The notes below the pieces were generated by a model, which saw nothing but the letters and a program-made list of their open reading frames with translations, was not told the DNA's origin and searched no databases. The translations under genes were made by a program, and so were the position numbers. 64,000 nt of DNA from Bacteroidales bacterium. Lineage in GTDB: Bacteria > Bacteroidota > Bacteroidia > Bacteroidales > UBA932. This document shows, piece by piece, positions 459-24,211 of this stretch. The first letter of the stretch is position 1. Each line of letters starts with the position of its first letter. The stretch covers positions 62,001 to 126,000 of the forward strand of contig JAFURF010000070.1 in the NCBI GenBank assembly GCA_017471965.1. Direction: 5' to 3'.

Positions 459-1583
459 ATGGATTTATTTGAAGTATATAAATTGTGGGACATCGAGCCG
501 GTACGAGGGCTCGATACCACTTTGTGGGATAAGGATGGCGAGGTGTATACTGACCTTTATGGCGGGCACGCCGTGATTTCTGTGGGACATTGCCATCCTC
601 ATTATGTGAAGACTCTCTCCGAGCAGATCGGAAAGTTGGGGTTCTATTCGAATGCTGTGCAGAATCCCTTGCAAAAGGAACTCGCTTCCCGCCTGGGTAA
701 GGTCTGCGGATACGATGATTATTCCCTGTTCCTTTGCAACAGTGGGGCTGAGGCTAATGAGAATGCTCTCAAAGTGGCATCGTTCCATACCGGCAAGGCC
801 AAGGTGCTGGCATTCAGGAAGGCATTCCACGGAAGAACTTCCGGTGCGGTAGCAGCAACTGACAATCCTAAGATACAGGCTCCGTTCAATGCGACACAAA
901 ACATAGTTTTCGCACCTCTGAACGACCTGGAGGCGGTTGATGCGGAACTTTCGGGAGGCGGCTTTGCTGCAGTCATCATCGAGGGTATCCAGGGAGTGGC
1001 CGGGATCTATGAGCCTACAGCAGAGTTCATGCACGGATTGCGTGCCCTATGCGACAGATACGGCTGTGTCCTGATTCTGGACGAGATTCAGTCCGGCTAC
1101 GGACGCACCGGAAAATTCTTTGCACATCAGCACCACGGGGTATGTGCTGACATCATCACCACAGCCAAGGGAATGGGCAACGGCTTCCCTATCGGAGGTG
1201 TCCTGATTAGCCCTTCCATCAAGGCATCGTATGGTATGCTTGGAACGACATTCGGAGGCAACCATCTTGCCTGCACTGCAGCACTTGCCGTACTGGATAT
1301 CATTGAGAATGAACACCTTGTAGAGAATGCCGCAAAGATAGGAAAGTACTTCGCAGAAGCATTTGCCGCAGACAAGGCCATCAAGGAATACAGGGGCAAG
1401 GGACTGATGATCGGTATGGAACTGAAAGATGAATACGTCGGGCTCCGCGACAGGCTTCTATTCGAAAGGCATTTCTTCACAGGAGCGGCAGGTGCCCAGG
1501 TCATCCGCCTCCTCCCTTCACTCACCATCTCGCAGGAGACTGCAGAGTCATTCGTTAACGCATGGAAGGAACTGACATTATGA
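459..1583 (+). CDS. argD: N-acyl-ornithine aminotransferase (ArgD, class III PLP transaminase)
   Basis: This 374-residue cytosolic PLP enzyme transfers the amino group of glutamate to N-acyl-glutamate semialdehyde, giving N-acyl-ornithine. Visible landmarks are the NSGAEANENALK substrate/PLP segment (about residues 94-105), the ILDEIQSGYGRTG loop with Asp208, and the PLP lysine Lys237 in TTAKGMGNGFP. Length is normal for ArgD (about 375-405). Its stop overlaps the start of argF' as ATGA, so the two are probably translationally coupled. In this pathway the acyl group is most likely succinyl rather than acetyl, judged from the downstream ArgF'. The start follows a repeat-rich leader with no clear Shine-Dalgarno, as is common in Bacteroidota. 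Confidence 0.93.
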   Translation: MDLFEVYKLWDIEPVRGLDTTLWDKDGEVYTDLYGGHAVISVGHCHPHYVKTLSEQIGKLGFYSNAVQNPLQKELASRLGKVCGYDDYSLFLCNSGAEANENALKVASFHTGKAKVLAFRKAFHGRTSGAVAATDNPKIQAPFNATQNIVFAPLNDLEAVDAELSGGGFAAVIIEGIQGVAGIYEPTAEFMHGLRALCDRYGCVLILDEIQSGYGRTGKFFAHQHHGVCADIITTAKGMGNGFPIGGVLISPSIKASYGMLGTTFGGNHLACTAALAVLDIIENEHLVENAAKIGKYFAEAFAADKAIKEYRGKGLMIGMELKDEYVGLRDRLLFERHFFTGAAGAQVIRLLPSLTISQETAESFVNAWKELTL

Positions 1584-2533
1584 GACATTTCACATCAATA
1601 AAGCAATTAGGCAACCTGCAGGACGCACTTGCTGCAGCAAAATATGTAAAGGAGCATCCGTTCGCCGACCAGGACCTCGGCAGGAACAGGACTCTCCTGA
1701 TGATTTTCTTCAATTCGAGTCTGCGTACAAGACTGAGCACACAGAAGGCTGCAATGAATCTCGGAATGAATGTCATCGTGCTTGATGTCAACCAGGGAGC
1801 ATGGAAACTCGAGACCGAACGCGGAGTCATCATGAACAGCGACAAGCCGGAACATCTTCTGGAGGCAATCCCAGTGATGGGATGCTATTGCGATGTGATC
1901 GGAGTACGTGCCTTCGCCAAGTTCGAAAGCAAGGAAGATGATTATAACGAAGTGATCGTCAATCAGTTCATCAGATATTCCGGCAAGCCGGTGTTCAGCA
2001 TGGAGGCTGCAACAAGGCACCCCCTCCAGACCTTTGCAGACCTGATAACCATCGAAGAATACAAGAAGACAGAGAAGCCGAAGATCGTGATGACCTGGGC
2101 ACCTCATCCGAAAGCGCTTCCGCAGGCAGTGCCGAACTCATTTGCCGAAGGTATCAACATGACCGGCTATGAATTCGTCATCACCCATCCGCACGGCTAC
2201 GAACTTGATCCGGCATTCGTCGGAAGAGCACATATCGAATACGACCAGCGCAAGGCCTTCGAGGGCGCAGACTTCATCTACGCGAAGAACTGGTCTGCAT
2301 ATACCGGTGACAATTACGGCAAAGTCCTATGCACGGACCGAGACTGGACTGTGGATGCGGAGAAGATGGCGTTGACAAACAACGCATACTTCATGCATTG
2401 TCTCCCTGTGCGCAGGAACATGATCGTGACTGACGATGTGATCGAAAGTCCTCAGTCGATCGTGATTCCGGAGGCCGCCAACCGTGTCGTATCGGCACAG
2501 ACGGTCTTGAAGGAGATTCTGCGTGACCTATAA
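1580..2533 (+). CDS. argF': N-succinyl-L-ornithine carbamoyltransferase (ArgF')
   Basis: This 317-residue transcarbamylase closely resembles the Bacteroides fragilis succinylornithine enzyme as I remember it. Carbamoyl-phosphate binding is seen in FFNSSLRTR (residues 43-51) and the ornithine side in HCLPVRR near residue 270. The residue that separates succinyl- from acetyl-ornithine enzymes in published work is Pro90 (DKPEHLLEA) here, which points to succinyl substrates. I chose ATG at 1580, overlapping the argD stop, rather than the in-frame ATG at 1562, because family members begin only a few residues before the conserved GNL segment. It acts in the cytosol in the acylated branch of arginine synthesis. 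Confidence 0.92.
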   Translation: MRHFTSIKQLGNLQDALAAAKYVKEHPFADQDLGRNRTLLMIFFNSSLRTRLSTQKAAMNLGMNVIVLDVNQGAWKLETERGVIMNSDKPEHLLEAIPVMGCYCDVIGVRAFAKFESKEDDYNEVIVNQFIRYSGKPVFSMEAATRHPLQTFADLITIEEYKKTEKPKIVMTWAPHPKALPQAVPNSFAEGINMTGYEFVITHPHGYELDPAFVGRAHIEYDQRKAFEGADFIYAKNWSAYTGDNYGKVLCTDRDWTVDAEKMALTNNAYFMHCLPVRRNMIVTDDVIESPQSIVIPEAANRVVSAQTVLKEILRDL

Positions 2534-2548
2534 ATCATTATCGATCAA

Positions 2549-2588
2549 GCACTTGCTTAAAGTGCGTGCCGCCAAAGGGGTGCACGCA
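2549..2588 (+). other. two mutually exclusive hairpins in the argF'-argB gap
   Basis: GCACTT (2549-2554) pairs with AAGTGC (2560-2565), and TGCGTGC (2563-2569) pairs with GCACGCA (2582-2588). The two stems share bases 2563-2565, so only one can form at a time. There is no following T tract. This could be a regulatory or RNA-processing element before argB, or chance. The remaining bases of the roughly 100-bp gap show nothing recognised. Confidence 0.35.
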
Positions 2589-2633
2589 GATTGCATAAGA
2601 TACTGAAAATCAACAGAGTACAAAACACAACAA

Positions 2634-3554
2634 ATGATCAAGGTAGTCAAGATAGGAGGAAATGTGGTAGACAATCCCGAACTTCTGAGGCAGTTCGTCA
2701 AGGATTTCGCCGCCATGCCGGGAATGAAGATCCTTGTACATGGAGGAGGAGTGATGGCGAGTCAGATGCAGAAGTCAATGGGCATGACGCCGCTGATGGT
2801 GGAAGGAAGGAGGGTGACCGACGAGGAGACACTGAAAGTCGTGACCATGGTATATGCCGGATGGTGCAACAAGAACATCACTGCACTCCTGCAGGGCGAG
2901 GGATGCAATGCAATAGGCCTGAGCGGTGCAGACGGTAATGTCATCAAGGCACAGAAAAGGCCTCCGGTAGAAGTAGCAATGAGCAGAGAGGCGGCAGAAG
3001 CATTGATGGACAAGACCTCGGTGACTGAAAAAGAAGAGGGTAAATGGATGGTGGATTACGGATTTGTCGGAGATGTAAATGCAGAAAGCGTCAACGCCGG
3101 ATTCATATATTCGCTTCTTGAAAGAGGAATCGTACCGGTATTCAATGCCATCAACCATGACGGAAACGGCTATCTTCTGAACACCAATGCCGACACGATA
3201 GCATCATCAGTAGCAGTCGCAATGGCCGGATACAGATACCGTTCACCCAAAGACGTGTGCTGCAGATGCGAAGAATGCACTCATTGCAGTGATGATGGAA
3301 GACTTACACATGAAACAGAACTGATCTACTGCTTTGAGAAGGACGGGGTCCTTTATGACAAGGATGACGACTCAAGCGTGATACCGGAAATCGGACGCGA
3401 TCTCTTTGCATCACTCCGGGAAGAAGGAAGAGTGGCGGATGGTATGATTCCGAAACTGACCAACTCATTCAAGGCTATCGACAGCGGAGTTGCAAGAGTG
3501 ATCATCAAGCATGCCCGCAACCTGCTCAACAGTAAAGGAACCATTCTTATATGA
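2634..3554 (+). CDS. argB: acetyl/succinyl-glutamate kinase with Cys-rich insertion
   Basis: This 306-residue amino-acid kinase phosphorylates N-acyl-glutamate. The N-terminal KIGGN and LVHGGGV loops (residues 6-10 and 34-40), the LSGADGN segment (96-102) and the C-terminal GMIPKL lysine loop are intact. It is about 50 residues longer than typical ArgB (about 257). One insertion lies around residues 117-140, and a second around 200-228 carries Cys209, Cys210, Cys212, Cys215 and Cys218, a CxxCxxC pattern suggestive of metal binding. The reading frame runs through both inserts without disruption. Its stop overlaps argE as ATGA. The catalytic fold is well supported; the role of the inserts is unknown. 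Confidence 0.9.
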   Translation: MIKVVKIGGNVVDNPELLRQFVKDFAAMPGMKILVHGGGVMASQMQKSMGMTPLMVEGRRVTDEETLKVVTMVYAGWCNKNITALLQGEGCNAIGLSGADGNVIKAQKRPPVEVAMSREAAEALMDKTSVTEKEEGKWMVDYGFVGDVNAESVNAGFIYSLLERGIVPVFNAINHDGNGYLLNTNADTIASSVAVAMAGYRYRSPKDVCCRCEECTHCSDDGRLTHETELIYCFEKDGVLYDKDDDSSVIPEIGRDLFASLREEGRVADGMIPKLTNSFKAIDSGVARVIIKHARNLLNSKGTILI

Positions 3555-6132: not shown

Positions 6133-6156
6133 AAGAGTATATTTACACCAAAACAC

Positions 6157-7332
6157 ATGAACATGAAAAACATATTTACAATTCTTGCCTTGATGGTGGC
6201 ATCAGTCACCGCATCGGCACAGCAGGCCCTCTGGAGCGGCTCAAGGATAGTATCTCCGGAGATCAATCCGGACAACACAGTCACCTTCCGCCTTCATGCT
6301 CCGAAAGCAGTGAAGGTACAGGTCACAGGAGACTTTCTGCCGTCACAGGGTTGGGTTCCTGGATATGCTGACCTGACTGAGAAGGATGGAATATGGGAAT
6401 ACACCACATATCCACTCGCTCCTGAACTGTACAGTTACTCTTTCATTGTCGACGGATTCGTGACCAGAGACCCTTCAAACGTATACATGATCCGCGATGT
6501 GGCATCAGTAATGAATGTATTCATCATAGGAGGCGGACGGGCAGATCTCTATAAGGTCAACGACGTACCGCATGGCACTGTTTCCAAAGTATGGTACCAC
6601 AGTCCAACGCTCGGGACAGACAGAAGGATGACGGTCTACACACCCGCAGGATACGAAAAGAACCGCAAGCAGAAGTATCCTGTATTCTATCTTCTGCATG
6701 GCGCAGGTGGAGACGAAGAGGCCTGGATGGACCTGGGACGCACGTCACAGATACTTGACAACCTCATCGCACAGGGCAAGGCAGAGCCTATGATAGTGGT
6801 GATGACAAACGGTAATGCAGGAGAAGTTGCTGCTCCGGGACAGTGCCCCGAAGGCTATGAGCGCATACCAGGCATGCAGCAGCGCGGAATGATGGAAGGT
6901 TCATTCGAACTGCATTTCCCTGACGTGGTGAAATATATCGAAGACAACTACAGGGTATATAAGGACAAGAAGCACAGGGCCATCGCAGGCCTGTCAATGG
7001 GAGGATACCATTCTCTCCACATCTCCAAATATTATCCTGACATGTTCGACTACGTGGGACTCTTCTCAGCAGCCGCAAGATTCCACGAGAACTCGGAATG
7101 TCCTGTATATCAGAACGAAAAGTCTCAGATAGACACCCAGTTCGCAAAGAAGCCTGCCCTGTACTGGATCGCCATCGGAAACACCGATTTCCTTTACGAT
7201 GAAAATGTGAAACTGAGGCAGTATCTGGACGAAAAGGAATACACTTACGAATATATGGAATCCGACGAAGGACATATCTGGAAGAACTGGAGGATATACC
7301 TTACCGAGTTCGTTCCGAAACTTTTCAAGTAG
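6157..7332 (+). CDS. secreted CE1-family esterase with N-terminal CBM48/E-set domain
   Basis: This 391-residue alpha/beta hydrolase starts with a Sec signal peptide ending near ASAQQ (about residue 22). Residues about 30-115 form an E-set/CBM48-like module (TFRLHAPKAVKVQVTGDF), followed by an esterase-D-type catalytic domain with the oxyanion segment LLHGAGG, nucleophile Ser280 in GLSMGG, and a C-terminal His in DEGHIWKNWR. This architecture is common among Bacteroidota feruloyl/acetyl-xylan esterases that act on plant polysaccharide esters. The exact substrate cannot be read from the sequence. A second ATG at 6163 (MKN) is an equally good start. It is unrelated in function to the upstream arginine genes. 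Confidence 0.82.
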   Translation: MNMKNIFTILALMVASVTASAQQALWSGSRIVSPEINPDNTVTFRLHAPKAVKVQVTGDFLPSQGWVPGYADLTEKDGIWEYTTYPLAPELYSYSFIVDGFVTRDPSNVYMIRDVASVMNVFIIGGGRADLYKVNDVPHGTVSKVWYHSPTLGTDRRMTVYTPAGYEKNRKQKYPVFYLLHGAGGDEEAWMDLGRTSQILDNLIAQGKAEPMIVVMTNGNAGEVAAPGQCPEGYERIPGMQQRGMMEGSFELHFPDVVKYIEDNYRVYKDKKHRAIAGLSMGGYHSLHISKYYPDMFDYVGLFSAAARFHENSECPVYQNEKSQIDTQFAKKPALYWIAIGNTDFLYDENVKLRQYLDEKEYTYEYMESDEGHIWKNWRIYLTEFVPKLFK

Positions 7333-7345
7333 TCCCTTCACCGAC

Positions 7346-8395
7346 TTATTCTTCTACCTCTTCCAACCCGATTTCGGGAGGAAGAGGTTTTTTAGGGTTC
7401 TTCGGTATGCCGTAACTGATCAGTTTATTGGCCGCACCGACAATGCTCTGTCCCCTTTCGCGTATCTTCCTGTCGCAGGCCTCATACTGTTCCATGGCCT
7501 CTTCAAGTCTGCGCCCCATCTTGGCATGTGCCGCACATAGGTCCGAGACTCTTGCAATGACAGTCTCTGCCGCTGCTATGATCTGCTGCTGATTGGCAAC
7601 CTGCTCGTGGCTGGTCCACGCAATCCTTATCATACGGAGGAAAGGCATGAGGGTCTCTTCCGTCGTGATGAGGACTCCCTGCGAATAGGCATCATGCCAG
7701 AGATGCCTGTCAGATTCGGTGGCTAGACGGAGGGCAGAGTATACCGGGACAAACATGATGACATAGTCGAGCATCCTGTGCCCGGGCTTGAGGTATCTGC
7801 CGTAGTCCTTTCTGGCCAGTTTTCTGACCTGTTCCCGCATGGAAGCGACATGACGGTCGAGAGCATCTGCCTTAAGAGCCTCATCATCAGTGGAATAATA
7901 GTCATACATGGCGGTCAGGACGACTTTGGAATCGACAACGATATCATTCCCGTCAGGGTAATGCAGAATGAAGTCCGGCCTCATCAGTCGGGATGTATCC
8001 TCATTACGGAGAAGTATTCCGTTTTCATCGCGAAGGGTTTCCTCCTTGTCATAGTCACGCCCCTCACGCAGTCCCTCGGCAGTAAAGAGATTGTCAAGAA
8101 TGACCTCGCCCCAATTGCCCTGTGTCTTGTTGCGGCCCCTGAGTGCATCGGCAAGATTGTCCGCCTTGTCACCGATTGAGGCGGTCTGTTCGCGAAGGCT
8201 CTTCACGGCATTGTCCAGATTGGCACGGAGATGTTGAGATGCCTCTGCATGAGTCATGCGGTTCTTCTCGAAAGCATCCTTCATGTCCTTTATCTCCTTG
8301 TCAAGACTGCCCGCAAGGGATTCGAACATGGCTTTTGCCCTTTTGTCAAGGTCTTCTTCACGCGCTTTCAAGGCCTTTTCGCTGTCTGCCGCCAA
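7346..8395 (-). CDS. rmuC: RmuC-family DNA recombination protein, C-terminal main body
   Basis: This 349-codon frame encodes the coiled-coil and nuclease-like body of RmuC, a protein implicated in limiting inversions and recombination. Diagnostic segments are KTQGNWGEVILDNLF, RPDFILHYPDG, VVDSKVVLTAMYDY and MLDYVIMFVPVYSA. Residues about 1-90 are predicted coiled coil. It begins with a TTG immediately after an in-frame TAG (8396-8398). The missing membrane anchor is encoded in the same frame just upstream (8396-8536), so the gene looks split by one stop codon. Either a nonsense mutation or sequence error has occurred, or two polypeptides are made. Translation from TTG would give a soluble form without the transmembrane helix. 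Confidence 0.85.
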   Translation of the reverse strand: MAADSEKALKAREEDLDKRAKAMFESLAGSLDKEIKDMKDAFEKNRMTHAEASQHLRANLDNAVKSLREQTASIGDKADNLADALRGRNKTQGNWGEVILDNLFTAEGLREGRDYDKEETLRDENGILLRNEDTSRLMRPDFILHYPDGNDIVVDSKVVLTAMYDYYSTDDEALKADALDRHVASMREQVRKLARKDYGRYLKPGHRMLDYVIMFVPVYSALRLATESDRHLWHDAYSQGVLITTEETLMPFLRMIRIAWTSHEQVANQQQIIAAAETVIARVSDLCAAHAKMGRRLEEAMEQYEACDRKIRERGQSIVGAANKLISYGIPKNPKKPLPPEIGLEEVEE

Positions 8396-15188: not shown

Positions 15189-16745
15189 ATGGAGTCTGTA
15201 AAAGATCTTATCGTTGATGTCAATTCAACTGAAGTCTCGATAGCACTGATGGAAAACCACAGGCTGATCGAGTTGAACAAAGAGTCCAGCGAGGGCCATA
15301 GTTTTTCCGTAGGAGACGTATACCTCGGAAAAGTAAAGAAGATTCTTCCGGCCCTCAACGCTGCCTTTGTCGACATCGGAGACGAGAAGGAGGCATTTGT
15401 CCATTATCTTGACCTGGGACTTTACTTTCAAGCATTCGACGAATTCGTCAAGAGAGTAAATCCTAACTCAGACAACAAAGGCATATACAAGCACATCAAG
15501 CCTGACCACATCCTGGAAAAGGAAGGCAGGATCGAGAACGTGCTTACGCCCGGACAGATGATCATAGTCCAGATTGTAAAGGAGCCGATTTCGACAAAAG
15601 GTTCAAGACTGACTGCAGAAATTTCATTGGCAGGACGAAACATTGTACTGCTCCCCTTCGCCGAGAAGGTGAGCGTATCCCAGAAGATTTCTTCCAAAGA
15701 GGAGAAAAGAAGGCTGGAGACACTTGTAAGGAGCATTCTTCCAAAGAATTACGGAGCGATCATCCGTACCGCCGCAGAAGGCAAGAACGCTGCGGTCCTG
15801 GATGCGGAACTGATGTCGCTCGTGGAGAAATGGGAGAACTCCTGGAAAAAACTTGCAAGATCAAAAGGGGTGCAGCTGCTCTTCACGGAGTACAGCAAGA
15901 CGACCACCATCCTCAGAGACCTTCTCAACGATTCATTCACAAACATCTATGTGAACGACGAGAACATATATGAGGAGACCCGCAAGTACATCTCTCTGAT
16001 CTCACCGGAGCAGGAGAAGATCGTGAAGTTTTACAAGGACAAGACACCGATCTTTGACCACTTCGAAGTAACGAGACAGATCAAGAGTTCTTTCGGAAAG
16101 GTCGTACCTATCAAACAGGGGGCATACCTGGTGATCGAGCACACTGAAGCACTGCATGTGATCGACGTCAACAGCGGCATCCGCTCGAAGAACAAGGAGC
16201 AGGAGCAGAACACCTTCGACGTCAACTGCTATGCAGCCGAGGAAATCGCCAGACAACTCAGACTTCGCGACATGGGCGGAATAGTGATAGTGGACTTCAT
16301 CGACATGGAGTCGAACGAACACAGGAACGCTCTCTTCAAGAAGATGCAGGAACTGATGGAATCCGACAGAGCCAAGCACAACGTGCTGCCTCTGACCAAA
16401 TTCGGCCTGATGCAGATCACAAGACAGAGGGTCCGTCCGGCAACCGAGATCAATACCCAGGAGGTTTGTCCGGTGTGCAACGGTACCGGAAAGATATCTT
16501 CAAGTGTCGTAATCGATGAGGCCATCGAAAGAAGACTGTCCTACTATGTGGGCGAAAAGAAGATCACGAATCTGACCCTGAAGGTCAATCCGATCCTCGG
16601 AGCCTACCTTACAAGAGGACTCTTCACCTCTATCGTCGGAAGATGGAAGAAGAAGTACAGATGCAAGATCGAAGTTGTGGAAACAACCGACTTCACTGTC
16701 CTGCAGAATGAATTTTACAATGAAAAAGGAGAGAAACTCGATTGA
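15189..16745 (+). CDS. rng: ribonuclease G/E
   Basis: This 518-residue single-strand-specific endoribonuclease is involved in 16S rRNA 5' maturation and mRNA decay. Residues about 38-125 form the S1 domain (FSVGDVYLGKVKKILPALNAAFVDIG). The RNase E/G catalytic region includes IDVNSGIRSK and IVIVDFIDM with the metal-binding Asp residues, and the CPVCNGTGK Zn-link cysteines lie near residue 424. It lacks a long C-terminal degradosome scaffold, so it is RNase G-sized. Its neighbour cas13b is convergent and separated by a shared bidirectional terminator, so I see no functional link beyond position. Confidence 0.95.
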   Translation: MESVKDLIVDVNSTEVSIALMENHRLIELNKESSEGHSFSVGDVYLGKVKKILPALNAAFVDIGDEKEAFVHYLDLGLYFQAFDEFVKRVNPNSDNKGIYKHIKPDHILEKEGRIENVLTPGQMIIVQIVKEPISTKGSRLTAEISLAGRNIVLLPFAEKVSVSQKISSKEEKRRLETLVRSILPKNYGAIIRTAAEGKNAAVLDAELMSLVEKWENSWKKLARSKGVQLLFTEYSKTTTILRDLLNDSFTNIYVNDENIYEETRKYISLISPEQEKIVKFYKDKTPIFDHFEVTRQIKSSFGKVVPIKQGAYLVIEHTEALHVIDVNSGIRSKNKEQEQNTFDVNCYAAEEIARQLRLRDMGGIVIVDFIDMESNEHRNALFKKMQELMESDRAKHNVLPLTKFGLMQITRQRVRPATEINTQEVCPVCNGTGKISSSVVIDEAIERRLSYYVGEKKITNLTLKVNPILGAYLTRGLFTSIVGRWKKKYRCKIEVVETTDFTVLQNEFYNEKGEKLD

Positions 16746-16763
16746 GTTTCTCTCCTTTTTCAT
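16720..16763. terminator. bidirectional terminator between rng and cas13b
   Basis: A perfect 20-bp inverted repeat (16720-16739 and 16744-16763) with a 4-nt loop carries A-rich and T-rich outer ends, so it can stop transcription from both sides. It overlaps the last codons of rng and ends 15 bp before the cas13b stop codon. Confidence 0.85.
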
Positions 16764-16778
16764 CTGCATGCAGTCCCG

Positions 16779-19700
16779 TTACCTGACTCTGTTGTTTCCC
16801 GTATCGGAAAAAATCCTCAACAGGTCTTCCGTCAGTTTAGGAAGGGCCATCACATTCACCTTCACATCCGTGCCCTTGGCCGGGTATTTATTGTGGTTAT
16901 ATGCATTTCGGATGGCTGACAGGATCCTTGCATCCTCATCATTCAGCAGGCTCCTGCCGGTCAGGGCATCGAGCGCAGCCTTGAAATCCACCCTTCCGTC
17001 TAGTCCGAATCTCTTTATTGAAGCGGCCTCGAAGCGAAGGATGATCTCACAGATTTCATGACGACGTAAGTCATAATTCATAAGGTCTTCATCAAACAGC
17101 GACTTGTCTATGATGACCTTATTATCCTTCACAGTGATACGGTCACCTGTAATGTTTTCAGATAAGGCTGAATCATATATATGAGGGAGAAGGGTCTTCA
17201 CTCTGTCGTCATGCAGAAGTCGGAACATTCTTCCATAGTTCTTTATGACCACATCATTCTCCTTTATGGATGCTGAATGCGTCACCTTTGCCGCACCTTC
17301 TTTTTCCGTCCATACCACGTCTACCGAGAACTCGTCAATGGCAGATGACAGAATATTCTTGTTGCCTTCAGAAAGACTGAGGTTCTTAAGTCTGAACACC
17401 TTGTCCTTAGGAAGGTTCAGAGTCTCTCGCGCAGCAAGGAAAAGGACGATATCCTGCACCTTCAGGCGTCTGAGAGCCCTTTCGCAATCGTCATATTCCT
17501 TTCTGGCACTTAACAGACGTGAATAGAAGACACCGTCCTTCATCTTGAGACGGGCCTCACCGGATGCATCCTTCAGGCTGTTCCACATAGCATGCTCCGC
17601 CTCCACAATCTTAAGTTTTTCCCTCCAGTCAACTGCAGTCCTTTTACTTTCATATCCTTTATAGAACTTCTTCAGGCCTTTATAATATTCACCCATCCTG
17701 TTCCAGAATATGTTGCGCTTGGCAAGTCCATACTTGCCTGCCTTATCGGACCGTTCATTCAATCTCCAATATTTCGGTTCATCGGTGAACTCCAGAAGAT
17801 CGAACACACGATAATTTCGCTTGAGTCTGTACAGAGGCTGCTCGCTGTCATGCTCCACCTTTTCAAAATACTGTGCAATCAGATAACTTGCATTTACCTT
17901 GTCATTTTCCAGCACAGGTTTCATGACATCAATCTTGGCAAGTTGATCCTTCAGCATATCCGTAAATATGCCTGTCGGCAGATATATAGGGCAGTTCCTG
18001 TAGGATTCAGCAAGCCTCCTTGCATAGTCTGCCTGATCCACCGCATACTTCTGACGTCCGGACTTAAGGAACGGAAGATTCCTGAGTCCTGACTTGTTCG
18101 CGCCTTTCAATGCATTCTCAAGATATGCCTTCCTATATTCCAGATAATGTCTGTACAAGGCCAGGACAGATGACGGTTTCTTCTTGGTGAGAAGTTCTTC
18201 CAGAAACGGATGAGAGCCGTCCTTCACTCCGATGATCCTGGCATCTCGGAACACACCGGTCAACGCTTCGAGTCCTCCCTCGGAAGGCTTATATGTCGCA
18301 ATAGCCTTCTGCACAATGTTGTAATTCAAGCCGGTCGGCTTATTGCGGCCGTTATCAGACACTGGCATAAGACGCACGATGTCCCTGGCAAGGAAAGTTG
18401 CAAGAGAACCGGCACGTATGTCCACAAATCTGTCTTTTCCCTGTTTGTTTGCCTTGAGGTCACGAGCCGATGCGAGTTCCCTGTCAAACTTCTCCAACTG
18501 ATTTTCCGTCCTCTGAAGCATTCTGGTCAGAGCCTCTCGGGCCAAAGTCTCAAAAGACTTCTTCTCCTCAAAATCGCGGTCACCGCCCAGAAGCGGCATC
18601 TTACGTCTGATCTTCATCGGAACATCATACCATCTGAGGGTATATCTTACCGTTCCCTCTCCTGCACAGTAGTCCGATACATTCTTTTCTCCCTCCCACT
18701 TTCCTTTTGCAAGATCATCAAACAGTTTCATGTAGGCAGCCTTGCAGTTGGCCAGAAGTTTCTCCACAGCGGAAGAATTCTTTCCGAGGAGCCATGTCAG
18801 GAAGAGCATTGCAGGAATATCATATACACTCAGATAGAAATCAGGAACACCGGCATGCTTCCCCCACTCCTTTCTGGAATGGATATCCCCTATGCCTGGC
18901 ATATATTCACTCATACTGATGCCGATCTTATCACGATTGAAAAGATATTGAGTCCTGAAATCTGTTATATAAGGTTCCTTCTGCACCTCATCGGTCACCA
19001 CTTCTTCAAACTTCCTGATCAGTCCGGTCCCGTCCCAGCCCGGTTCAAGTCCGGTCCTCTTCCTTTCCACCGTCTGAATACGCCCGAAGCCGTTCAATTC
19101 CTTCTGTAGCCACCTTGGACGGACTATTCCGTCAGCACACTTCTTATCCTGACAGAAAAGCCACCTGTACTTTCCGAAAGTGACATGAAAACGCAGATTA
19201 GCGAACTTCTCGTTCTCATCAAGCCACTTCAACGCCAACTGAGGAAACCTGTCCGAACTTCTTTTCATCAACACCCCTTCTTCGTTCTTGAAGGACTCCC
19301 TGTCCTCCGGAGAAAGATGCTCAAAAAGTTCTTCCGGGCACTTTCCAAGTTCATTCAGAATGTCCAGAGCAAGCGCCATATCACTCCTTGTACTTTCAAG
19401 GCGTTCCTTCGGTATGCGCACCCGATATACGCTATAGGCCTCACGCAATGCCATGCGCTGCTTCTGCACCTGCTTCTGGGCCTCATCCCCCGTATACATA
19501 GGAACCATCTTACGCTCATACTTCGTACCAACGTTGACCATCGGTATGGCATCCGCTATTCCATAGAACCTTGCACCATTGCTATGCTTGTCAAGGGCGT
19601 CAAAGAACATTGACGCATACTGCTTCTCGATGAACTGACAGCATAGAAGCACAAGTCCCATCAATGTGAGCCTATAGTCTTCTGTACGGACCGCATGAGC

Positions 19701-20372
19701 AAATCCCGCATTCAACAGAGGCTTTCTGTTCACCATCATATATCTGTTCCGGTTATAGAAATCAAGATCTGAAACAGCGAGAGAAAACCTGTCCTTGACG
19801 ATACGTAACGATACGGTCATCATGTAATTCAGACACTCGGCCACCTTCTTTTCCTTTGAAGCGAACTCAGCAGAAACAGTACGGTCATCATTGAACACGA
19901 CATGAGAGGCCATGTCCCTATAGTATGACAACACATCCAGAAGGTCCCGCAGCATTTCTGACACGTCTTCCGACGTAATGACGATCCTGGCATAATCATC
20001 CTTTTCCTTGTCGACCGCCTTCCTATATCTTATCATCGGGTCGAGCATAGGAAATGCCGAGAGCAGACGACCTCTTATAAGGTCGCTGACCTCCTTCTTA
20101 GGACTAAGAAGTCCGTTCTGCCCGAGAAGAGGGGACGACGTAAGCGTGGTATCCTTGACAGAAGATGCCTTGAATCCGAGAGACTGGGAAAGGTGGCCCA
20201 GGATGATGCAGCAGTTCTGACGGGCCATATTGAGATATGCCGTAAAATGGCTCTGGAATGCCAGGTCGTCAGGTCTGAGGTTCTCGACAGGACGCACATA
20301 CTTAGGGCGTTTAGGCCATGAATGGTTCTGGATCTGGACACGCCTGATGAAAGAGTCTATAAATGTATTCAT
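16779..20372 (-). CDS. cas13b: Cas13b, type VI-B CRISPR RNA-guided RNase
   Basis: This single 1197-residue protein adjoins a CRISPR array. HEPN1 shows RDMASH (Arg152, His157) after a helical N-terminus (SHFTAYLNMARQN). HEPN2 at the extreme C-terminus shows RNAYNH in AIRNAYNHNKYP (Arg1155, His1160). Terminal placement of both RxxxxH motifs, size (Cas13b about 1100-1200) and repeats with GTTGT/ACAAC ends identify subtype VI-B. The known activity is crRNA-guided cleavage of target RNA with collateral RNase activity and self-processing of pre-crRNA. Both catalytic pairs are intact and the frame is uninterrupted, so it is probably functional. No csx27, csx28, cas1 or cas2 lies nearby. The start at 20372 is supported by a promoter 27-58 bp upstream. 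Confidence 0.93.
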   Translation of the reverse strand: MNTFIDSFIRRVQIQNHSWPKRPKYVRPVENLRPDDLAFQSHFTAYLNMARQNCCIILGHLSQSLGFKASSVKDTTLTSSPLLGQNGLLSPKKEVSDLIRGRLLSAFPMLDPMIRYRKAVDKEKDDYARIVITSEDVSEMLRDLLDVLSYYRDMASHVVFNDDRTVSAEFASKEKKVAECLNYMMTVSLRIVKDRFSLAVSDLDFYNRNRYMMVNRKPLLNAGFAHAVRTEDYRLTLMGLVLLCCQFIEKQYASMFFDALDKHSNGARFYGIADAIPMVNVGTKYERKMVPMYTGDEAQKQVQKQRMALREAYSVYRVRIPKERLESTRSDMALALDILNELGKCPEELFEHLSPEDRESFKNEEGVLMKRSSDRFPQLALKWLDENEKFANLRFHVTFGKYRWLFCQDKKCADGIVRPRWLQKELNGFGRIQTVERKRTGLEPGWDGTGLIRKFEEVVTDEVQKEPYITDFRTQYLFNRDKIGISMSEYMPGIGDIHSRKEWGKHAGVPDFYLSVYDIPAMLFLTWLLGKNSSAVEKLLANCKAAYMKLFDDLAKGKWEGEKNVSDYCAGEGTVRYTLRWYDVPMKIRRKMPLLGGDRDFEEKKSFETLAREALTRMLQRTENQLEKFDRELASARDLKANKQGKDRFVDIRAGSLATFLARDIVRLMPVSDNGRNKPTGLNYNIVQKAIATYKPSEGGLEALTGVFRDARIIGVKDGSHPFLEELLTKKKPSSVLALYRHYLEYRKAYLENALKGANKSGLRNLPFLKSGRQKYAVDQADYARRLAESYRNCPIYLPTGIFTDMLKDQLAKIDVMKPVLENDKVNASYLIAQYFEKVEHDSEQPLYRLKRNYRVFDLLEFTDEPKYWRLNERSDKAGKYGLAKRNIFWNRMGEYYKGLKKFYKGYESKRTAVDWREKLKIVEAEHAMWNSLKDASGEARLKMKDGVFYSRLLSARKEYDDCERALRRLKVQDIVLFLAARETLNLPKDKVFRLKNLSLSEGNKNILSSAIDEFSVDVVWTEKEGAAKVTHSASIKENDVVIKNYGRMFRLLHDDRVKTLLPHIYDSALSENITGDRITVKDNKVIIDKSLFDEDLMNYDLRRHEICEIILRFEAASIKRFGLDGRVDFKAALDALTGRSLLNDEDARILSAIRNAYNHNKYPAKGTDVKVNVMALPKLTEDLLRIFSDTGNNRVR

Positions 20373-20398
20373 ATCAACAAGGTAACTGTTTATCCTGT

Positions 20399-20430
20399 TA
20401 AAGTTACCCTATTTCTCCCAAACCCCCAAA
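20399..20430 (-). promoter_or_regulatory. probable cas13b promoter
   Basis: On the minus strand, TTTG (20427-20430), 20 bp, then TAACTTTA (20399-20406, one mismatch to TAnnTTTG) gives a predicted start about 20 nt before the cas13b ATG. It lies between the effector and array 1, so cas13b need not depend on array transcription. Confidence 0.6.
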
Positions 20431-20445
20431 ACAAATCTTAAAAAT

Positions 20446-20895
20446 GTTGTCATACCCGTTCAAATACAGGCTTCTACAACTTGAGCGTCATGTAAGAACC
20501 AACGGATATGCAAGTTGTTGTCATACCTGCTCAAATACAGGCTTCTACAACACAACCGATGCTTTTCCTGAGATGAAGTGGACAAGTTGTCATACCTGCT
20601 CAAATACAAGCTTCTACAACAAAGTAGGAGAAACCTATACCGCCACAGAAACCGTTGTCATACCTGCTCAAATACAGGCTTCTACAACTGCAGGTAGTGC
20701 AGAATATGCCGACAGAGGTTGAAGTTGTCATACCCGTTCAAATGCAGGCTTCTACAACGGAGAGCGAGTTCTCTACGCAAACCGTACAGTTAGTTGTCAT
20801 ACCTGCTCAAATACAGGCTTCTACAACCTTGCAATGGAACAAGCAATCAAGGATATGCGTGTTGTCATACCTGCTCAAATACAGGCTTCTACAAC
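20446..20895 (-). CRISPR. CRISPR array 1, type VI-B (7 repeats, 6 spacers)
   Basis: The 35-bp repeats start at 20446, 20517, 20586, 20654, 20724, 20793 and 20861, with spacers of 36, 34, 33, 35, 34 and 33 bp. Read on the plus strand the repeat begins GTTGTCATACC and ends CTTCTACAAC. The minus-strand form (GTTGTAGAAGCCTG, then TTTGAGCAGG, then GACAAC) resembles published Cas13b repeats as I remember them, so the minus strand is taken as the transcribed strand. Variation is limited to CCTGCT/CCCGTT and ATACAGG/ATGCAGG, plus one AAG in repeat 3. The array starts 74 bp from the cas13b start codon. Confidence 0.95.
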
Positions 20896-21000
20896 TTCCT
20901 GATTCTCAACAGTAATCACATTCTTTAAAATTGATGACTTTTTGAACATTTTGTAAATCATAACATTAAGGATTTAGTGATTTTCTTCGCAAATATAACG
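20896..21000 (-). promoter_or_regulatory. candidate AT-rich leader of array 1 (minus-strand transcription)
   Basis: Immediately outside the last repeat lies about 100 bp of AT-rich sequence ending at a minus-strand TATATTTG (20990-20997), a good -7 element. No well-spaced TTTG is found; the nearest, at 21023-21026, is 25 bp away. Transcription from here would run through array 1 towards cas13b. Confidence 0.4.
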
Positions 21001-21096
21001 ATTTTTATGTTTCTGAAAACCACAAAAAACAACTGAACGAAACCCATTTCCCTTTTACAGAGGTGCTGATATGTAAGTTTACACAATTGTCCAACC

Positions 21097-21210
21097 AGAA
21101 TCAAAAAATCCTACTGTTTTTTGATTCTAAACGAAAAAGGGTCAAAGAAAACCACTTTTATCACACAAAACAGACATCAGAATCAAAAAAACGCCCGATT
21201 TTTTGATTCT
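21097..21210. repeat. pair of identical-arm hairpins with different loops
   Basis: AGAATCAAAAAA and TTTTTTGATTCT form 12-bp perfect arms twice, at 21097-21128 (loop TCCTACTG) and 21179-21210 (loop ACGCCCGA), with centres 82 bp apart. Both loops are 8 nt. The base around them is AT-rich and non-coding. Confidence 0.85.
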
Positions 21211-21391
21211 GACCTGAAAACTGCTCCTCACCAGGGATTTAAACTATCGAATTCGAGAGGTTTGAAAAAAAGATATTGCTCAAATGACGTGTTATGAACG
21301 CATGAAAGGTAAAACTGCCTCCGTCTTACCTTTTAATATCCGTTTTACAGAATACCATCGACACTCCTTTACACTTTTGAGTGTTCGAGGG

Positions 21392-21485
21392 GCAGAAACG
21401 GCGAAGGTTTATCCGAACCACAACCCTGCTGATATGGACAGGATTTATAAGAATTAAGGAGCAGAAACGGAGAAGGTGTAGCCGA
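21392..21485. repeat. 25-bp direct repeats 69 bp apart in the inter-array region
   Basis: GCAGAAACGG-N-GAAGGT-N-TA-N-CCGA occurs at 21392-21416 and 21461-21485 with three mismatches. The 69-bp period equals one repeat-plus-spacer unit of the adjacent arrays, although the repeated sequence itself is unlike the CRISPR repeat. Confidence 0.5.
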
Positions 21486-21534
21486 CAATGTCAACTATGA
21501 AGTAATGTTGACCCCGATTTCTGTTCAATGACGA

Positions 21535-21561
21535 GTGTATCATACCTGTTTAATATATCTG
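21535..21561 (-). repeat. possible degenerate CRISPR repeat relic
   Basis: TCATACCTGTT (21539-21549) matches the repeat interior over 11 bases and is flanked by further partial matches (TGTA before, AATATATCTG after). It lies midway between the arrays and could be a decayed repeat from a once continuous array, or chance. Confidence 0.3.
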
Positions 21562-21622
21562 AGAAAACACTACCTGCGGTCCATCGAAAACAGGTCGCAC
21601 ATTGGGCGCTAGAGAAAGAGTG

Positions 21623-21727
21623 CTGTGACGTGTTTTGGCTGAAAAGTGTCACAGTGGTGGATGAAATCGAGGAATTTGTATGAAAATCGGAAGGGCTGTG
21701 TCACGAATCGGGCAAAAAGCGATACAG
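21623..21727. repeat. two-stem-loop dispersed element, copy 2
   Basis: CTGTGAC (21623-21629)/GTCACAG (21648-21654) and CTGTGTC (21696-21702)/GATACAG (21721-21727) reproduce the half-site spacing of the copy at 303-407 exactly. The bases after the first stem (TRGTGG) are also shared. Confidence 0.7.
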
Positions 21728-21755
21728 TTATCATTAAAAGTTTTTTCGGTCACCT

Positions 21756-21812
21756 GGACACTTGGGGTGATAATTGAGTGCCCAAACTCAAGGGTGGACA
21801 TTTCGGGTGATA
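21756..21812. repeat. 17-bp direct repeats, possible insertion-sequence end
   Basis: GGACACTTGGGGTGATA (21756-21772) and GGACATTTCGGGTGATA (21796-21812) differ at three positions and are 40 bp apart. Between them is TGAGT/ACTCA. Multiple short direct repeats are typical of the termini of some IS families. No intact transposase is present. Confidence 0.4.
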
Positions 21813-21820
21813 GAAAGGCA

Positions 21821-21905
21821 ACAGATCAAGCGTGAGGACGGCCCTTGGGCCGAGCCGCACGCAGCGCTTGATCTGTAGTCGCCGGAGGTCGTATATTCCG
21901 GCGAC
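21821..21905. repeat. cluster of perfect hairpins
   Basis: ACAGATCAAGCG (21821-21832) pairs with CGCTTGATCTGT (21865-21876), enclosing CGGCCC TT GGGCCG (21839-21852). Immediately after, GTCGCCGGA (21878-21886) pairs with TCCGGCGAC (21897-21905). The stretch is GC-richer than its surroundings and sits just downstream of the transposase relic. Confidence 0.7.
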
Positions 21906-21916
21906 GGTGCCGCGGG

Positions 21917-22090
21917 TCAGTAGTGCCGTTTGATATTTTCATCCGACAGTTTCTTTCTATGTTCTTTGCTGATCTCACTGTGAACTCTATTAGATTTCTG
22001 GTCTGAGAACAAGCCTCCCAGCGTATTATTGGTGTCTGGAAGTCCTGTTCCCGGATAATCATAGAATCTAAAACGACCGGGAACAGACAT
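21917..22090 (-). pseudogene. C-terminal relic of an IS transposase (57 codons)
   Basis: The frame from ATG 22090 to TGA 21917 encodes a 57-residue fragment containing PDTNNTLGGLFSDQKSNR and HSEISKEHRKKLSDENIKRH. This resembles the C-terminal end of DDE-type transposases with a TNN-LEG-F-LK pattern followed by an RVHxGxxxxxRKK segment. The expected glutamate is glycine here and the N-terminal catalytic domain is absent. The overlapping 78-codon ORF at 21826-22062 is in another frame and less protein-like. It suggests an insertion sequence once landed in the CRISPR region and decayed. Confidence 0.45.
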
Positions 22091-22304
22091 TTCTCATAGC
22101 ACTGTTACAAAAGATTGACAATCAGGTAATTGCAAATACTCTTATTTTATACCCTACTACATATTAACCACTTGCAAAAAGACCCTGTTGCCGGTCGCCG
22201 TAAAGCAGGCGCATAGTTCGCACCCACGATTTCAGAAACTTCAACCATTCTTCAGAAAACCGTCTGCACACCGACAACTCATCTCTTTACCCGATAAAAA
22301 ACCT
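22091..22304. other. non-coding stretch before array 2, nothing recognised
   Basis: About 210 bp with no convincing ORF, promoter pair or terminator. Short frames are broken by stops. Confidence 0.5.
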
Positions 22305-23093
22305 GTTGTCATACCCGTTCAAATACAGGATTCTACAACTTCTTTCAAGAGCAAGTCTTTGCCACACAAAAAGGTTGTCATACCCGTTCAAATGCAGGCT
22401 TCTACAACGGAGAGCGAGTTCTCTACGCAAACCGTACAGTTAGTTGTCATACCTGCTCAAATACAGGCTTCTACAACTCTACGCAATCGTTGCGATTGCT
22501 ATCCTTGTCGTGTTGTCATACCTGCTCAAATACAGGCTTCTACAACACACCATTGACGCAGACGAGACATTTACAGTAAGTAAGTTGTCATACCCGTTCA
22601 AATGCAGGCTTCTACAACACAACAGAAGCCGAAAAAAGAATTGAAACCAGCCTGTTGTCATACCTGTTCAAATACAGGCTTCTACAACCATTCAACTGGT
22701 CCAAAGGCAAAATCGCTATTGTTGTTGTCATACCTGCTCAAATACAGGCTTCTACAACGTACTTTCTGTACCGTTGACTGTTGGTTGCTGAAGTTGTCAT
22801 ACCCGTTCAAATACAGGCTTCTACAACAGGTTTGATAAGATAAAAATTAATCAGAAACAGTTGTCATACCCGATCAAATACAGGCTTCTACAACAAAAAC
22901 TGACCTTCTCTACTATGTTCAAGAGAAGTTGTCATACCCGTTCAAATACAGGCTTCTACAACAGTGGGGTTGGGCTTGTGAGAAGAAACGTGAGGGTTGT
23001 CATACCTGTTCAAATACAGGATTCTACAGCCATACGATCCTTGCCCGCACTGCAACCATTAACAAAAGTTGTCATACCCGCTAAAATGCAGGC
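22305..23093 (-). CRISPR. CRISPR array 2, type VI-B (11 full repeats plus one truncated, 11 spacers)
   Basis: Repeats start at 22305, 22374, 22443, 22512, 22584, 22654, 22724, 22793, 22860, 22928, 22996 and 23068. Spacers are 34, 34, 34, 37, 35, 35, 34, 32, 33, 33 and 37 bp. The repeat is the same 35-mer as array 1, with more variants; repeats 1 and 11 have ATTC in place of CTTC, and repeat 11 ends ACAGC. The last repeat stops after 26 bp at 23093, 8 bp from the rluD stop codon. Bases 22374-22477 are identical to 20724-20827 in array 1. No leader is visible on the rluD side. Confidence 0.95.
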
Positions 23094-23101
23094 ATGTATG
23101 T

Positions 23102-24211
23102 CTATTCCTCTTCCAGAAACTGGGTCATGTTCTCGGAGTATTTGCGCCATTTGTCTATCAGGGACTGCATGTCGGCAGGAAGTTCAGAGTCGAATCTGAC
23201 CATCTGCCTTGTCTTAGGATGGACGAAGCCGAGAGTCTTGGCATGCAGGGCCTGCCTTGGCAGCAGCCTGAAGCAGTTCTCGATGAACTGACGGTACTTG
23301 GCATAGATTGTACCCTTGCGGATCTCCGAGCCGTCATAACGCCCGTCATTGAAGAGAGGATGGCCGATCCAGTTGAAATGGACACGGATCTGATGGGTAC
23401 GTCCTGTCTCCAGGCGGCACTTGACCACTGTCACATACCCGAATCGCTCGAGGACTCTGTAATGGGTCACCGCATGCTTTCCATGATCTCCCTCCGGGAA
23501 CACCTTGAACCTCATCCTGTCGTTAGGGTCGCGGCCTATGTTCCCGATGATGGTGCCTTCGTCATCCTTAAGGTTGCCCCATACGATGGCCACATAACGA
23601 CGCTCGATCGAATGGACGAAAAACTGCTTTGCAAGGTCGAGTTGAGCCTCGTCATTCTTGGCGACGACAAGAAGTCCGGAAGTATCCTTATCAATACGAT
23701 GCACAAGCACACCCATCCTTTCGTCATCTGCATCAGGGCCTTGAGAGATGCCCAGATGGTGGGCAAGGGCATTCACAAGAGTACCGCTGAAGTGTCCGTG
23801 TCCCGGATGGACCACCATGCCGGCCTCCTTGTTGAGCACCAGCACATCGTCATCCTCATATATAATGTTCAAAGGAATCGCCTCAGGAAGAATCTCCAGT
23901 CCGCGGCGCTGATAAGGCATGACGAACTTCACCACATCACCGGGACGGACCACATAATTGGCCTTTACAATCTTGTCATTGACACGGATATACTCTGCCT
24001 TTATCGCAAGTTGGATGCGGTGACGTGAGGTGTACTCCATATGTGTCGCAAGATACTTGTCCACACGCATAGGCACCTGACCGGCGGAAATGTCGAACCT
24101 GTAATGCTCGAACATCTCCTGCTGTTCGTCCTCAAAGGCAACCTCGTCACCTGCCGAGTCTACATCAATATCCTCTACCGGATCCTCTTCAAAATCGAAA
24201 TATGTGCTCAT
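23102..24211 (-). CDS. rluD: RluA/RluD-family rRNA pseudouridine synthase
   Basis: This 369-residue enzyme isomerises uridines in 23S rRNA. It has an acidic N-terminal extension (residues 1-35), an S4 RNA-binding domain (about 48-105) and the catalytic HRIDKDTSGL motif with Asp174. The Bacteroidota form is usually this long. Its start is 1 bp after the PASTA gene stop, so it is the last gene of a four-gene unit (lysE-like, DUF362, PASTA, rluD). CRISPR array 2 begins 8 bp after its TAG on the same strand, so read-through could carry array 2. Confidence 0.93.
   Translation of the reverse strand: MSTYFDFEEDPVEDIDVDSAGDEVAFEDEQQEMFEHYRFDISAGQVPMRVDKYLATHMEYTSRHRIQLAIKAEYIRVNDKIVKANYVVRPGDVVKFVMPYQRRGLEILPEAIPLNIIYEDDDVLVLNKEAGMVVHPGHGHFSGTLVNALAHHLGISQGPDADDERMGVLVHRIDKDTSGLLVVAKNDEAQLDLAKQFFVHSIERRYVAIVWGNLKDDEGTIIGNIGRDPNDRMRFKVFPEGDHGKHAVTHYRVLERFGYVTVVKCRLETGRTHQIRVHFNWIGHPLFNDGRYDGSEIRKGTIYAKYRQFIENCFRLLPRQALHAKTLGFVHPKTRQMVRFDSELPADMQSLIDKWRKYSENMTQFLEEE

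Follow-up and report, generated by a model that had tools for sequence, protein, structure and literature searches.

How does a type VI-B CRISPR (clustered regularly interspaced short palindromic repeats) locus obtain its spacers when neither accessory nor adaptation genes are found beside it? The locus that raises this question lies in a 64,000-nucleotide (nt) stretch of the genome of a gut bacterium of the Bacteroidales (GTDB lineage UBA932; GenBank assembly GCA_017471965.1, contig JAFURF010000070.1, positions 62,001 to 126,000 of the forward strand), hereafter the window. With high confidence, we read it as a type VI-B locus with an intact Cas13b and two arrays of 35-nt repeats that hold 17 spacers, predicted to cleave phage RNA under the guidance of CRISPR RNAs (crRNAs). 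Its effector is ordinary, and the locus is a sound member of type VI-B in which no accessory gene was found. Its array geometry separates it from the two accessory-bearing VI-B loci that we measured and from Flavobacterium columnare. We propose that the VI-B branch of the window may be stocked by a Cas1 fused to a reverse transcriptase (RT-Cas1) or by another machine that is not of type II.

The effector is identified by several independent routes. The first-pass annotation had described a 1197-residue type VI-B Cas13b with an intact RxxxxH motif at each end, and all of this holds (Table 1). The open reading frame (ORF) scores 549.2 bits against NF038190, the NCBIfam equivalog model for type VI-B Cas13b (cut-off 150), and is matched by two PADLOC Cas13b models (2.4e-143). 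A sequence search of the PDB returned three distinct chains, two of them PspCas13b constructs (1.9e-107 and 1e-106) and the third a chain of 1127 amino acids (aa) (2.5e-33; entry 6dtd, Prevotella buccae Cas13b). In an alignment of 44 rows (43 of 60 homologs plus the window), R152 and H157 are invariant, and R1155, N1156 and H1160 occur in at least 90%. The AlphaFold2 model (pLDDT 84.5, pTM 0.74) has the fold of solved Cas13b structures: all eight Foldseek hits at E <= 0.001 were Cas13b or Cas13bt3 entries. The fold resembles that of PspCas13b over nearly its whole length (PDB 8wf8; E = 6.3e-51, TM 0.75 by query and 0.84 by target), although identity in the structure alignment is 27% and the PDB chain has 1094 residues. 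Two RxxxxH motifs alone are weak evidence, and Pfam gave no hit over cut-off, which might suggest some other HEPN protein, such as a toxin or an RNase. That reading is refuted by the NCBIfam and PADLOC models, the PspCas13b fold and the adjacent arrays; with Cas13b as the top hidden Markov model match, far over its cut-off, its probability is negligible.

The arrays are less simple than first described. The count of 17 spacers was correct, but they are split over two arrays 1.4 kb apart (6 and 11 spacers, with 19 repeats of 35 nt in total) rather than held in one. An array does adjoin the gene, at 73 bp from the cas13b start codon to the nearest repeat, not 74 bp. Only 16 of the 17 spacers are distinct, because one repeat-spacer-repeat unit occurs in both arrays (20724-20827 and 22374-22477, 100% identical over 104 nt). 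The GTTGT/ACAAC repeat termini were seen correctly, as 18 of 19 repeats fall within two differences of a GTTGT...ACAAC hairpin pattern. The outermost repeat of array 2 (23068-23102) is degenerate, with seven differences, and overlaps the end of the neighboring RluD-like gene by one base. By eye, the inner stem has the alleles AGCAGG (eight copies), AACGGG (seven), AACAGG (two) and ATCGGG (one), plus one degenerate copy; the four main alleles have the same or nearly the same predicted hairpin. We take the crRNA strand to be minus, because a conserved leader then lies upstream and the repeats read GTTGTAGAAGC...GTATGACAAC. This is also the strand of cas13b.

Table 1. Coordinates of the features of the VI-B locus within the window.
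Feature	Position	Strand	Description
cas13b	16779..20372	minus	1197 aa; HEPN motifs R152-H157 and R1155-H1160; matched by NCBIfam NF038190, PADLOC Cas13b, and PspCas13b sequence and fold
Promoter match ahead of cas13b (predicted)	20399..20430	minus	Bacteroidota-type TTTG-N20-TAACTTTA
Array 1	20446..20895	minus (taken)	7 repeats of 35 nt, 6 spacers of 33-36 nt; cas13b-proximal spacer common to L007
Array 1 leader	20896..21025	minus	About 130 bp; promoter-like TATATTTG box (by eye); conserved in L007 and L008
Inter-array segment	21026..22304	none	Inverted repeats 21096-21211; decayed piece of a dispersed element 21741-22066
Array 2	22305..23102	minus (taken)	12 repeats, 11 spacers of 32-37 nt; no leader seen; last repeat degenerate, abuts RluD-like gene
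Terminator-like hairpin left of insert	16726..16757	unassigned	Window fold -22.1 kcal/mol; a similar one at 7 empty sites

Close relatives show which parts of the locus are conserved. Cas13b is rare near the window genome (matches in 4 of 101 relatives searched, its own included), and the window repeat is present in 3 of 300 genus genomes (again including its own). Two relatives carry the locus: L007, from a sheep caecum metagenome-assembled genome (MAG; protein 97%), and L008, from a water buffalo caecum MAG (protein 73%). The 130 bp ahead of array 1 are identical to the window at 125 positions in L007 and 106 in L008; beyond the leader, 23 of the next 70 bases of L008 match. In L007, the array contains the cas13b-proximal spacer of the window, followed towards cas13b by one more; on the leader side, five other spacers occur in the window. 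Because the proximal spacer is shared and the leader side differs, array 1 likely gains spacers at its leader end. This difference is as leader-end acquisition predicts, and loss in L007 is also possible. The conserved leader, an array that differs towards the leader from that of a 97%-identical relative, and a 1197-aa frame with conserved catalytic residues fit poorly with a decaying system, in which the Cas13b frame would still be open while the arrays no longer gained spacers and array 2 was a dead remnant. Decay would account for the degenerate outer repeat of array 2 and the lack of a visible leader there, for the decayed mobile-element piece between the arrays, and for adaptation genes and spacer targets not being found; we nevertheless regard it as improbable.

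A consensus-like promoter had been reported ahead of cas13b, and this is borne out by a match to TTTG-N20-TAACTTTA, which we take to be the Bacteroidota-type promoter consensus. This pattern occurs five times in the window against 0.97 expected (0 of 100 shuffles reach five); sigma-70-type sites, with 12 in the region against 10.1 expected, are about as frequent as chance predicts. A sequence resembling the cas13b promoter match also follows the last repeat of L008 (by eye). Two further candidates at the leader were rejected. A 28-codon frame (20875-20961, minus), which spans the junction of leader and first repeat and is present in the window, L007 and L008, shows no sign of coding, because only 2 of 14 window-L008 differences fall in synonymous codons. 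A leader-repeat hairpin of the kind described in excerpts of PMC13187072 is unsupported, with 7.4 expected pairs in the window, a value reached by 37 of 300 shuffled leaders. The corresponding counts, each of 300 and against the locus's own pairing, are 91 for L007, 141 for L008, 197 for L058 and 137 for L056 (the last two loci are described below).

PADLOC found no Csx27, Csx28 or Cas1 among the eight flanking and inter-array ORFs; the same library detects Csx27 in locus L057 and Csx28 in locus L059. With no adjacent csx27 or csx28 found, the window falls in neither VI-B1 (csx27) nor VI-B2 (csx28), and its Cas13b would work either by itself or with a partner that is not linked to it. The first-pass annotation had called the locus complete-looking. 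That description calls for reservations, given two arrays instead of one, no csx27 or csx28 found beside them, and no adaptation genes found; the division into two arrays, the insertion site and the lengths of the spacers had gone unremarked. Cas1 was present in 3 of 10 genomes searched (G078, G132 and G173) and was not found in G000, G518, G673, G095, G329, G731 (which holds L007) or G732 (which holds L008). Note that G732 and G673 may be one genome.

The absence of an own cas1 is not peculiar to the window. Excerpts of a report on F. columnare (PMC8092290) describe a VI-B locus that likewise has none and uses the Cas1 of a type II-C locus in trans, with new spacers of 28-32 bp, the majority 30, at both loci. 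The 17 window spacers, in contrast, span 32-37 nt (mean 34.3, SD 1.4), and so do not show the length of about 30 nt expected of a VI-B array filled by a II-C Cas1, as in Flavobacterium. The VI-B1 locus L057 (G132) and the VI-B2 locus L059 (G329) likewise combine a Cas13b over the NF038190 cut-off with an adjacent array. They differ from the window in having 36-nt repeats, spacers of 29-30 nt (19 and 4, respectively) and a Csx27 or Csx28 gene; the repeats of the window measure 35 nt and its spacers 32-37 nt, and neither gene was found there. The difference in length is significant (Mann-Whitney test, 23 spacers, P = 1.5e-8). It is also seen when L061, a Cas13-like locus in G173 with 32 spacers of 30-31 nt, is added (54 counted spacers of 29-31 nt, P = 4.5e-14; one L057 spacer included in the 23-spacer test is absent from this one). 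We repeated the test without L061 because its Cas13b match is weak (27 bits, below cut-off). In G132, the VI-B1 array and a II-C array both have spacers of 29-30 nt.

Other loci share the looser geometry. L056 has 12 spacers of 31-36 nt and L058 has 12 of 31-37 nt, both with 35-nt repeats, and L058 does not differ from the window (P = 0.19). The spacers of L007 (36 and 33 nt) and L008 (35 nt) agree. L060, whose array is too degenerate, and one L116 interval of 156 nt were left out of these counts. In a Cas13b tree without PspCas13b, the csx27 and csx28 rows lie outside a 29-row group that holds all five loose-spacer rows. We did not adopt the loose-spacer loci as a clade, because long branches make this grouping weak. 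As a separate observation, L056 (5631-10010; G518, same genus) has a divergent Cas13b (29%), and an array whose repeats run in the opposite direction and whose last repeat is followed by a hairpin that resembles a terminator (by eye).

The loose spacer lengths suggest a Cas1-Cas2 unlike the type II-C one that serves VI-B in Flavobacterium. The relative L058 (G078) offers a candidate, and is the only locus where RT-Cas1 was found in cis. Its 10.8-kb contig carries RT-Cas1, Cas2, an array, a 520-aa ORF and a Cas13b (850 bits to NF038190), with the RT-Cas1 fusion and Cas2 (745-3310) adjoining the VI-B array and Cas13b. The RT-Cas1 has 756 aa, matches PF00078 and PF01867 over cut-off, and has a YADD motif. 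The L058 repeat is as long as the AACGGG allele of the window and agrees with it in its first 11 and final 12 bases. A second Cas1 of G078 adjoins an apparent II-C locus (by eye, with a Cas9-like ORF and 47-nt repeats). The spacers of that II-C array are 29-31 nt (65 of 66 intervals counted, one dropped), against 31-37 nt in the VI-B array of the same genome (P = 1.3e-10). Thus, two rulers appear to operate in one genome, and the loose one lies beside RT-Cas1.

Loose spacers also accompany RT-linked Cas1 on plasmids. We fetched five controls (H2, H3, H6, H7 and H8) of the 25 RT-Cas1 plasmid rows listed. Four of the five loci have a measurable array beside cas2, and all four are loose: L117 (35-41 nt, n = 5), L118 (34-41 nt, n = 5), L120 (36-46 nt, n = 20) and L121 (32-43 nt, n = 28). 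No array was found at the fifth, L119. The plasmid spacers are longer overall than those of the window. RT-Cas1 is tied to RNA-targeting CRISPR systems elsewhere, as it is at L058: in excerpts of a survey of 346 Cas13 homologs, 236 of them Cas13b (PMC6753606), the RT-linked type VI systems are all Cas13a (type VI-A), whereas here the link occurs at a Cas13b locus related to that of the window. Among the papers that our literature search listed, mostly as titles and the start of abstracts and with few subscription journals, we found no report of RT-Cas1 with Cas13b.

Several results weigh against the proposal, in either its adaptation or its targeting part. No cas1 was found in the window genome, which is 64% complete, and among the loose loci a Cas1 is known for L058 alone; rigid G329 has none either. 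No metagenome contig listed for RT-Cas1 had the same length as one listed for Cas13b (120 of 754 RT-Cas1 matches compared with 60 for Cas13b), so the cis link comes from one locus. In G173, a type I-like array is loose (34-37 nt), and the Cas13-like array has rigid spacers even though that genome yielded no Cas1 other than a type I-like one. As for targets, a blastn search with the full array region found nothing in phages and a single plasmid match (E = 0.8), which lay outside the spacers; five exact spacer cores, of the 16 distinct spacers, had no match in viral contigs; and two spacers searched in 200 genus genomes matched nothing beyond the window's own arrays. A codon-degenerate pattern of one further spacer matched two viral contigs, which we did not accept, as the full spacer differs at 8 of 33 and 7 of 33 positions.

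Because of the G173 arrays, and of G329 being rigid with no Cas1 found, looseness is a better argument against a II-C ruler than it is proof of RT-Cas1. A type I or III Cas1-Cas2 without reverse transcriptase, acting in trans and taking loose spacers from DNA only, is the competing explanation. It accords with the G173 type I-like array and with RT-Cas1 in cis at a single locus; it sits less easily with the YADD-bearing RT-Cas1 that adjoins VI-B in G078, with a repeat there so similar to the window's, and with loose arrays at all four measurable plasmid loci. We give this explanation a little less than an even chance, as we do any non-type-II Cas1 other than RT-Cas1 for the window lineage. RT-Cas1 itself we consider somewhat less likely for this lineage and suggest tentatively. 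A broader possibility, which we likewise consider doubtful, is that RT-Cas1/Cas2 stocks a VI-B branch with 35-nt repeats and loose spacers of 31-37 nt. The machine would act in cis in G078 and in trans in the window lineage, memory would be written from RNA, and in some members a CorA-like pair of membrane proteins would replace Csx27/Csx28. L008 has a two-gene module between array and cas13b (6143-7986; a CorA-like protein of 436 aa and a partner of 186 aa), and genomes that lack a Cas13b match (L099-L102) have homologs of the two genes next to each other. The 520-aa ORF of L058 has a weak PADLOC CorA match (4.7e-7) and no significant BLASTP match to the L008 accessory.

The site of the locus bears on its expression. 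A 6.36-kb block (16746-23101) separates the stop codons of an RNase E/G gene and the RluD-like gene. Both genes are named from family models: the RNase E/G subfamily and the RluA family are over cut-off, and RluD itself is below it. Among 29 RluD-like loci of genus relatives, the fetched flank includes the RNase E/G gene in seven and lacks it in the other 22, a count that pools different neighbors with contig ends. In these seven, the genes are convergent, their protein matches lie 20-39 bp apart, and a terminator-like inverted repeat lies between them at each site (by eye). The window hairpin remains beside the RNase E/G gene, and in the crRNA sense the RluD-like gene leads directly into array 2. 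The RNase E/G junction of L007 is the same as that of the window. The block is thus probably an insertion, judging from the seven empty sites.

Within the block, a 1398-bp inter-array query matched 57 of 300 genus genomes (its own included), mostly at query positions 238-563, which correspond to window 21741-22066. The ORF of a fuller copy of this element (L037) is, by eye, presumably transposase-like; its Pfam matches are weak and below cut-off. Two near-palindromic elements with TTTTTTGATTCT arms lie at 21096-21220; they recur in L007, and the same genome has a second copy (C52). Searches for mobile copies of the system gave no tblastn match to Cas13b at 1e-5 in either the plasmid or the phage collection, three pattern matches to Cas13b in viral contigs of which none was confirmed, and no match to the exact repeat pattern in viral contigs. 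Elsewhere in the window, ARAGORN called a tRNA-Arg (43313-43404) that overlaps an opposite-strand ORF matching IF-2 (41065-43881, minus) and is probably a false positive.

The anatomy of the sequence, the homology, the conserved leader, the empty sites and the spacer lengths are direct observations; transcription, processing of crRNAs, cleavage of RNA and the identity of the adaptation machine are inferred. We envisage the following sequence of events. Array 1 would be transcribed on the minus strand from its leader (20896-21025), and cas13b likely uses a promoter of its own. Array 2, for which no leader was seen, is likely read through from the RluD-like gene, and the terminator of that gene now lies beyond the inserted block. 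Cas13b, working alone or with an unlinked partner, would process the transcripts into crRNAs of spacer-repeat form, and its composite HEPN nuclease would become active when a target is bound. New spacers likely enter at the leader end of array 1, brought by a Cas1-Cas2 that may be unlike the II-C type and for which the best candidate is an RT-Cas1/Cas2 like that beside the G078 locus.

The site downstream of a housekeeping gene would provide a simple expression route for a leaderless array. Spacer length, in turn, is a cheap first diagnostic that can be applied to any genome. If this VI-B branch uses RT-Cas1, its spacers could derive from transcripts and would therefore match what the effector can cut.

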